The notes under the pieces: generated by a model
Told to the model about the DNA's origin: nothing
What the model saw: the letters and a program-made list of their open reading frames with translations, nothing else
The model's database searches: none
DNA from: a virus
Direction: 5' to 3' (one strand)
Virus record (IMG/VR): IMGVR_UViG_3300020470_000056
Location: 1-39,870 of that record
DNA: 39,870 nt
Translations under genes and position numbers: made by a program
Shown here: in pieces, positions 3,235 to 12,254 of the stretch
Layout: every line of letters starts with the position of its first letter
Position numbering within the stretch: the first letter of the stretch is position 1

Positions 3235-3902
3235 AGCGACAAAAGTATGACAACATACCTCTATTTCCTGTAAGGTGTTGGAATTTCCAAGCATCTGATG
3301 CTTTAGTGTCTGATACTCTAGACAAAGTAAAGAAACTAGACTATAGGAGATACAATGAGCCTGCGGGTGTAGGCACTAGCAATGACATACACCGTCGTGA
3401 AGAGTTTAGAGGTCTCCATTCATGGTTTCAACAGTGTGTTGACACCATACATGCTGATAATGGTTGGCAGTGTGACCGTTTAGTAGTAAACAAGTCATGG
3501 GTCAACCGAAGTGATGCAAAAGGAGGTGAGCATCATGAGCCACATAGGCATCCAATGTCCTATATAAGCGGTATATTCTACCTCACAGAGGGTCCTCCAA
3601 CAGTGTTTTTAGACCCTATTGCTTTAAGAGAGTGGCAGCAGTTTCATTTAGACGGAGGACCTATAGTAGACAACCGACAATTCATCCACACTGGGGCGGG
3701 TGGCTGCTTTATATTTCCTTCATGGTTGATACATGCTAGTGTGGAAAACCACGAAGATATTGATAGGTATACCATTGCCTTTAACACCTTCCCGCAGGGT
3801 AATTTAAACTCAGGTGGGTGGGATCAGCCCATGGTTACAGTAGATGTGACTAGCGGTTGGTCTCAACTAGGTCCTTTAAGATTATCTGATTATGCAGGGT
3901 AA
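3231..3902 (+). CDS. 2OG-Fe(II) oxygenase-like protein
   Basis: 223 aa. The proximal site HHEPHRHPMSYISG (H101, H102, H105, H107) is followed by YLTEGPPTVFLDP, then GCFIFPSWLIH with distal His H168 and DRYTIAFNTFPQGNLN with the candidate 2OG-binding Arg. The next gene shares PHRHPMSY/HRHPMSY, the YLT-GxPTxFxDP strand, the FPSWLxH block and the FNxFPxGxxN-WDxP ending, so the two look like a tandem duplication. Reaction and substrate are unknown beyond the superfamily mechanism. Confidence 0.85.
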   Translation: MKRQKYDNIPLFPVRCWNFQASDALVSDTLDKVKKLDYRRYNEPAGVGTSNDIHRREEFRGLHSWFQQCVDTIHADNGWQCDRLVVNKSWVNRSDAKGGEHHEPHRHPMSYISGIFYLTEGPPTVFLDPIALREWQQFHLDGGPIVDNRQFIHTGAGGCFIFPSWLIHASVENHEDIDRYTIAFNTFPQGNLNSGGWDQPMVTVDVTSGWSQLGPLRLSDYAG

Positions 3903-10851: not shown

Positions 10852-10923
10852 GGGACTGTCGCATATTGGTTAATGCGCTCTGCTTATAACGGAGTCAAGA
10901 GGGTTCAATTCCCTCCAGTCCTA
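10852..10923 (+). tRNA. tRNA-Ile (anticodon TAT)
   Basis: A complete 72-nt cloverleaf: acceptor GGGACTG/CAGTCCT (first pair G-U), D stem GCAT/ATGC, anticodon stem CTCTG/CGGAG with loop CTTATAA, 4-nt variable loop, T arm GAGGG/CCCTC with TTCAATT, discriminator A. Anticodon TAT reads AUA, which bacteria normally read with a modified CAT anticodon. CCA is not encoded. Confidence 0.88.
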
Positions 10924-10927
10924 CCTT

Positions 10928-11001
10928 GACTCAGTAGCTCAGTGGACAAGAGCATCGCTCTTCTAAAGCGTTGGTCGTAGGTTCGAATCCTACCTGAGTC
11001 G
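10928..11001 (+). tRNA. tRNA-Arg (anticodon TCT)
   Basis: A complete 74-nt cloverleaf with perfect 7-bp acceptor GACTCAG/CTGAGTC, D stem GCTC/GAGC, loop CTTCTAA giving TCT (AGA codons), 5-nt variable loop, T arm GTAGG/CCTAC with TTCGAAT, discriminator G. The outermost anticodon-stem pair is a T-T mismatch. CCA is not encoded. It lies 4 bases after tRNA-Ile. Confidence 0.93.
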
Positions 11002-11005
11002 CCTC

Positions 11006-11079
11006 GGGAGTGTAGCCCAATCGGCAGAGGCAGCAGACTTAAAATCTGCACAGTGTGGGTTCGAGTCCCACCACTCCTA
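11006..11079 (+). tRNA. tRNA-Leu (anticodon TAA), short variable loop
   Basis: A 74-nt cloverleaf: acceptor GGGAGTG/CACTCCT (first pair G-U), D stem GCC/GGC, anticodon stem GCAGA/TCTGC with loop CTTAAAA (anticodon TAA, UUA codons), T arm GTGGG/CCCAC with TTCGAGT, discriminator A. The variable loop is only 5 nt, whereas bacterial tRNA-Leu normally has a long variable arm. Confidence 0.88.
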
Positions 11080-11087
11080 TATAAATT

Positions 11088-11222
11088 ATGAAATATCTTA
11101 TCCATCCTCTGACCGTATGTAATCTAATTATCGTAGGGTCTCTTGTCTTCATCGAGGCATTACATATTAATTATCATAGGGGGTTGACACAATGCGAAGA
11201 TGCTGTTAATATATTAGAGTAA
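11088..11222 (+). CDS. small membrane peptide (44 aa)
   Basis: Begins at an ATG 8 bases after tRNA-Leu: MKYLIHPLTVCNLIIVGSLV continues FIEALHINYHRG and ends in DAVNILE. Residues about 8-24 form one hydrophobic helix, so it is likely a single-pass membrane peptide with the charged tail outside the bilayer. Not recognised. A strong sigma70-type promoter (11184-11212) is embedded in its last 40 bases, so the RNA gene that follows starts essentially at its stop codon. Its own ribosome site is weak; it may be read from the tRNA transcript. Confidence 0.5.
   Translation: MKYLIHPLTVCNLIIVGSLVFIEALHINYHRGLTQCEDAVNILE
11184..11212 (+). promoter_or_regulatory. sigma70-type promoter of the structured RNA
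   Basis: TTGACA at 11184-11189, a 17-base spacer and TAATAT at 11207-11212. It predicts a transcript beginning near 11219, at the first helix of the structured RNA at 11224. Confidence 0.75.
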
Positions 11223-11437
11223 GGACGCTTACGTCGGGTGTGACTGAATAAACTTACTGGCATATAGCTGGTTAAGGTGATGAGACACAGGTGGTGCTGC
11301 TGTCCGCAGGGGCAGAACCGATGACCAATCGGGTCTCAGGCAGAGAAGTAATTCTAAACTGTAGAAATGCCCTTCTCTTGTTGGTATACAGGAATCCAAC
11401 CACCCTCTTTTATTATACCTATATAATGATAAATTGA
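11219..11437 (+). ncRNA. candidate structured non-coding RNA
   Basis: About 220 bases with no convincing ORF, bounded by a promoter (11184-11212) and a terminator (11438-11464). Hand folding shows many helices. GACG/CGTC at 11224-11235 has a CTTA loop. TGAGAC 11281-11286 pairs with GTCTCA 11333-11338, enclosing CTGC/GCAG (11297-11300 with 11312-11315) and CCGAT/ATCGG (11318-11332), the last stacked directly on the outer stem. AGAGAAG 11342-11348 pairs with CTTCTCT 11372-11378, enclosing TTCTA/TAGAA (11352-11366). GTTGG/CCAAC lies at 11380-11400. No known family was recognised. T4 also carries stable RNAs of unknown role beside its tRNAs. Confidence 0.6.
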
Positions 11438-11464
11438 AGAGACCGCAGAGGTCTCTTTTTCTTT
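11438..11464 (+). terminator. Rho-independent terminator
   Basis: AGAGACC at 11438-11444 pairs with GGTCTCT at 11450-11456 around GCAGA, with a T-rich tail to 11464. It ends the RNA unit nine bases before the next gene. Confidence 0.88.
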
Positions 11465-11472
11465 GGAGAATT

Positions 11473-11715
11473 ATGAATCTTTATGTAAATTTTTGTCCAC
11501 CATATACTAAGCGGAGTGATACTGTAACCCTAGATGTCCCGACTGAAATGACGGATGTCTTTATGCAGTATGTCCACATCCTTGCAGACGAAAAGAATGT
11601 ATCTGCTAGGAAAGCCTTTAAAGATTTGGCGACAACAACCTTTGACAATTTAATGGAGACCGATTATGGCCATAAAAATAGCAAGAATGCAAAGCGGGGA
11701 AGACGTAATCGCTGA
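11473..11715 (+). CDS. hypothetical protein upstream of gp43 (80 aa)
   Basis: I chose ATG 11473 because TTGGAG precedes it and the upstream in-frame start lies inside the terminator. 80 aa with VTLDVPTEMTDVFMQYVHIL and a helix DEKNVSARKAFKDLATTTFD, ending very basic (KNSKNAKRGRRNR). A nucleic-acid-binding role is conceivable from the tail. It overlaps the next gene by 50 bases. Not recognised by name. Confidence 0.6.
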   Translation: MNLYVNFCPPYTKRSDTVTLDVPTEMTDVFMQYVHILADEKNVSARKAFKDLATTTFDNLMETDYGHKNSKNAKRGRRNR

Positions 11716-12079: not shown

Positions 12080-12254
12080 GGAGCCTAGCATCTTGCTAGA
12101 AGATTGTTTTCAAGTGGATAGAGACGCTGAGTTAGTCCCCTATCCCCTTCACACTGACCAGAGGTATGTGTTTCTAAACACTACTGATGTCATGTCTATC
12201 CTTGACCCTACACAGGTTATAGTAAAAAAATATAAAAAACTTGTTGATGAGTAA
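12072..12254 (+). CDS. small conserved hypothetical protein upstream of gp43
   Basis: 60 aa from ATG 12072, preceded by GCAGGAG. The sequence (SILLEDCFQVDRDAELVPYP, then TDQRYVFLNTTDVMSILDPT) is acidic, with a strand-rich middle and a basic end KKYKKLVDE. It may be related to the preceding Sm-like candidate, since both combine a short beta region with DP and SILDP-type turns, but similarity is weak. It overlaps both neighbours by 8 bases, so it is translationally coupled to the polymerase. Confidence 0.6.
   Translation: MDEEPSILLEDCFQVDRDAELVPYPLHTDQRYVFLNTTDVMSILDPTQVIVKKYKKLVDE

Follow-up and report, generated by a model that had tools for sequence, protein, structure and literature searches.

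The structured stretch that follows three tRNA genes in the window (the whole 39,870-nucleotide stretch of viral DNA analysed, IMG/VR record IMGVR_UViG_3300020470_000056) is the manA RNA, Rfam family RF01745, of a T4-like cyanophage. The arrangement of sequences around manA suggests that it probably works in trans as an early phage RNA in its own right, and that in many phages it also serves as an mRNA leader. manA itself was already catalogued; what is new here is the genomic architecture around it. The features of the window copy are collected in Table 1.

Table 1. Features of the manA locus in the window.
Feature	Position	Strand	Basis or remark
tRNA-Ile(tat), tRNA-Arg(tct), tRNA-Leu(taa), upstream of manA	10852..11079	+	ARAGORN
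Promoter, sigma70-type TTGACA-17-TAATAT	11184..11212	+	-35 TTGACA 11184-11189, spacer 17 nt, -10 TAATAT 11207-11212; position conserved in 94/95 loci
manA RNA, Rfam RF01745, full length	11218..11410	+	Rfam scan, model positions 1-192
5'-terminal hairpin P1, AGTAAG-GACG-CTTACG	11218..11233	+	Alignment and structure mapping
Long-range closing stem GGGTG/CACCC of the multi-branch core	11236..11405	+	Helix 2
Intrinsic terminator, GAAGAGACC-GCAGA-GGTCTCTTT and T-rich tail	11436..11458	+
ORF of 80 aa, phrog_730 (unknown function), directly 3' of the terminator	11473..11715	+	GGAG before ATG

The Rfam covariance-model scan gave a score of 182.2 bits for the window copy (E value 2.4e-49), against a gathering score of 55.2. 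The sequence-only reading had proposed a new structured RNA, flanked by a promoter and a terminator of its own and adjacent to tRNAs. All of this description stands except the word "new": the Rfam scan, which that reading had itself named beforehand as the refuting check, returned the known family, and a new RNA family is thereby ruled out. The cyanophage context is seen in the neighbouring hsp20 gene, in an 833-aa ORF at 12241 matching the cyanophage DNA polymerase gp43, and in the similarity of the window to P-RSM6 and other phages. As had also been proposed, no convincing ORF covers the structured stretch; the longest one in the sense direction has 48 aa (with a GTG start) and the longest antisense one has 56 aa.

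The structure was examined by mapping the Rfam structure onto the window row of an alignment of 95 non-redundant loci, clustered at 90% identity. Standard pairs occupy 89.3% of the cells, and 35 of the 55 pairs show two-sided changes, a level reached by none of 500 shuffles; covariation had been another check named in the earlier reading. The number of cells changed on both sides was 381, compared with 109 in the shuffles and at most 83 in versions in which the partners were slid, and the pairing breaks when the partners are slid by 1 to 3 columns. In the closing stem, both sides are changed in 4 of the 95 sequences, which have U-A in place of the common A-U. The P1 hairpin is a variable stem in the relatives, mostly of 5-11 bp and often with the loop GACG, and it is poorly aligned because of this variation in length. 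The folding energy gives a modest gain over shuffles for 11218-11410 alone (z = -1.55) and a larger one when the terminator is added (z = -2.90). The structure is therefore real, and the strong evidence for it is the covariation, not the energy. Two of the stems drawn from the window sequence are borne out: TGAGAC/GTCTCA (11281-11286 with 11333-11338) encloses CCGAT/ATCGG (11318-11322 with 11328-11332), and AGAGAAG/CTTCTCT (11342-11348 with 11372-11378) encloses TTCT/AGAA.

A near-consensus sigma70 promoter (TTGACA-N16/17-TATAAT) lies just 5' of P1 in 94 of the 95 loci, so placed that the predicted start of transcription falls at the 5' hairpin. In the window this start is predicted at about 11218-11219, where manA begins. 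The promoter score is at least 10 of 12 in 86 loci and 9 in one; seven more loci have TTGACA followed by TGCTATAAATA. Only 1.3% of background windows of the same DNA score at least 10 of 12. A promoter scan of 3.5 kb of the window found 9 promoters where 7.4 were expected, which is not significant by itself; the window promoter is considered real because the same position is a promoter in the homologues at so much more than the background frequency. The promoter was not found in one locus, L062, where a tRNA-like sequence 5' of manA was seen by eye, with no ARAGORN call. In the seven loci with TGCTATAAATA (L006, L007, L025, L043, L082, L112, and L117), the -10 region looks like a sigma70 -10 box merged with the T4-late-type TATAAATA; all seven stand before gp32-type ORFs.

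In 38 of the 95 loci, the -35 box lies within the loop or arm of a T-tailed hairpin, a terminator facing the upstream gene (for example GAGGGTTGACACCCTCTTTTTTT). Such an arrangement arose in 0.16% of shuffles that kept TTGACA and in 3 of 56 other strong promoters of the same contigs, one of the 56 being that of the second manA copy of L082. A single element of this kind could both terminate transcription of the upstream gene and initiate that of manA. Examples of the terminator-promoter composite are found in L012, L013, L031, L037, L124, and L126; it is absent from the promoter of the window copy. manA is unlikely to be a 3'UTR element of the upstream gene, given this terminator ahead of it in 38 loci and the promoter in 94.

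The 3' flanks are more varied. A strict terminator-like hairpin lies within 130 nt 3' of manA in 25 of 84 loci (33 of 95 overall), the 84 being those not retrieved via the hairpin pattern described below; the corresponding values are 9.4% after the stop codons of other ORFs and 3.8% at random positions. In 25 of the 95 loci, a conserved hairpin, AGACCTAAGATGCAACTC-loop-GAGTsGGGCAGATGGTCT, lies 9-17 nt 3' of manA, a frequency that is biased because 11 of the 25 loci were retrieved with that pattern. These loci (L016:3496-3530, L056:2896-2930, and 23 further non-redundant loci) have downstream genes of 12 families and upstream genes of 14, and no Rfam match to the hairpin was found in the loci scanned. 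Since a strong T-run is sometimes missing, the hairpin might be a 3' domain of the manA RNA.

In other loci a tRNA comes next. It lies directly 3' of manA, at about 15 nt or less, in L005, L021, L032, L050, L086, L091, and also L049, and in L018 it lies 3' of the downstream hairpin. ARAGORN found 10 tRNAs in 681 kb of manA-flanking DNA and all of them are beside manA, compared with 0.02% for random positions; two further tRNAs, missed by ARAGORN and detected by Rfam, are likewise beside manA. The adjacency to tRNAs remarked in the window is thus non-random across phages. A late-promoter-like TAAATA occurs within 80 nt 3' of manA in 22 of the 95 loci, against 3.7% in the background. In about half of the loci, an ORF comes next without a terminator or tRNA. 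The first downstream ORFs belong to 42 families over 92 loci, led by gp32 (15/92) and talC (9/92). ORF calling was simple and distances are rough, and all counts of loci are of sequences related by descent and hence not independent.

Each of 13 annotated phage genomes checked carries exactly one manA, in changing surroundings: the upstream neighbours are a capsid gene, pebS, pstS, a petF-type ferredoxin gene, regA, and NAD synthetase, and the downstream ones gp32, talC, purL, and small ORFs. One copy per genome is not a rule, since the L082 contig carries two (119-315 and 3636-3836). The position of manA shifts between genomes: the window copy is near hsp20 and gp43, whereas the interval from hsp20 to gp43 in P-RSM6 has no manA and the single copy of that phage stands before talC. 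No match above the cut-off was found in 386 cyanobacterial genomes (two weak sub-threshold ones were ignored), which argues against an RNA borrowed from the host. A search of 395 genomes of the order of a Shewanella gave nothing above the cut-off either, but this negative is weak, since the gammaproteobacterial copies known from the literature provided no positive control. The matches of a 16-base manA core to genome contigs were scattered over unrelated bacteria and are probably due to chance.

These features can be put together as follows. Host RNA polymerase would transcribe manA from its own strong promoter, and the transcript would begin at the first nucleotides of P1; its early timing is taken from the promoter type alone. 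In the window, the transcript would stop at the intrinsic terminator about 240 nt further on, to give a discrete structured RNA. At other loci, the 3' end might be formed at the conserved terminator-like hairpin, or RNase P might generate it by removing a tRNA located a few nucleotides further on, and in about half of the loci transcription would run on into the ORF. The RNA would then probably act in trans by binding a ligand, a protein, or a host RNA. Of the features of a free-standing small RNA, a promoter predicted to start at the 5' end of the RNA is present in nearly all loci as above, and a signal for 3' end formation ahead of the following gene is found in the window and in part of the family (a terminator in 25 of 84 loci and a tRNA in seven more). 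A bolder form, which we regard as plausible but hold tentatively, is that manA is an independently transcribed early RNA gene specific to phages (promoter-manA-terminator or promoter-manA-tRNA), which moves between genome positions, exerts its effect on the cyanobacterial host in trans, and is no riboswitch, so that its Rfam class would be wrong for most phage copies.

Weinberg et al. (2010, PMC2864571) reported manA nearly exclusively from marine metagenomes and T4-like cyanophages and proposed that it acts as a cis-regulatory element or riboswitch. Its structure was revised in Rfam 14 (PMC7779021), where RF01745 has the type Cis-reg, a potential 5'UTR, and a cyanophage genome paper of 2023 lists it (PMC9964418). 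The papers found to mention manA report genomes or methods of structure analysis, with no experimental study of it among them. The window copy is like the described family in its full-length match, its helices, and its type of organism; it differs from the description as a probable 5'UTR element in being preceded by a promoter of its own and separated from the following gene by a terminator.

Alternatively, manA may be a cis-regulatory leader, most plausibly a riboswitch whose ligand controls a terminator or ribosome access of the next gene; we consider this possible though somewhat unlikely. The highly conserved multi-branch core is typical of aptamers, manA is promoter-proximal in 94 of the 95 loci, and the order in the window, a terminator followed by GGAG and the ATG at 11473, would suit a leader. 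The ORF-led half of the loci keeps this explanation alive, and the recurrence of gp32 and talC is what a cis-acting leader predicts and speaks against a discrete RNA. However, the downstream genes share no function, and several loci have a tRNA next or a late-promoter-like motif 3' of manA. In a riboswitch that acts on a terminator, the pairings would be expected to exclude each other, yet manA and the terminator fold jointly with no conflict. Pairing of the 5' arm of the terminator averaged -10.15 kcal/mol with its own manA and -10.18 kcal/mol with swapped ones (31 loci, p = 0.62). A switch between aptamer and terminator via GAGACC/GGTCTC, which is common to the terminator and the 11281-11338 stem, seemed plausible from the window copy but was rejected, since native pairs were no better than swapped ones. 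A discrete early RNA accounts better than a gene-specific switch for the single copy, the own promoter, the changing neighbours, and the presence of 3' signals or tRNAs at a sizeable minority of loci.

The put RNA of phage HK022 lets RNA polymerase pass downstream terminators. A similar polymerase-modifying role at the 5' end of early transcripts would suit the location of manA at the very start of transcripts, often just 5' of terminators; it is drawn purely by analogy, and the occurrence of manA once per annotated genome, next to varying genes, makes it very unlikely. Slightly more improbable still is a maturation or guard element for phage tRNAs, for instance a stable domain at the 5' end of tRNA precursors: every ARAGORN tRNA in the flanking DNA adjoins manA, but only about 11 of the 95 loci have a tRNA neighbour, and this cannot be the general function. 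With regard to the regulatory, tRNA-processing, or defence-related role suggested in the sequence-only reading, the sequences seem to contain no pointer to defence.

The tRNA cluster of T4 holds stable RNAs of unknown role. Like manA, these are non-coding phage RNAs beside tRNA genes; the likeness is one of description, and manA is a separate family. The wcaG, PhotoRC-II, and glutamine (glnA) RNAs are also structured cyanophage RNAs, but of other Rfam families. Some of these share contigs with manA: PhotoRC-II is on L034, and glutamine riboswitch matches lie near manA on L081 (1194-1242 and 1707-1803). A second conserved element (approximately AACGAAGGACTCGAAAGATCGTAACCCTGCGTA) follows a strong promoter at L010:8606, L034:11149, L079:3185, L080:3294, L148:7253, and L169:4059 (manA strand); it had no Rfam match in L010, L034, L148, and L169.

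Since 2010, manA has stood as an orphan RNA presumed to be a riboswitch. Should it prove to be an independent early RNA of these phages, which are abundant in the ocean, ligand screens based on the downstream genes would be misdirected.
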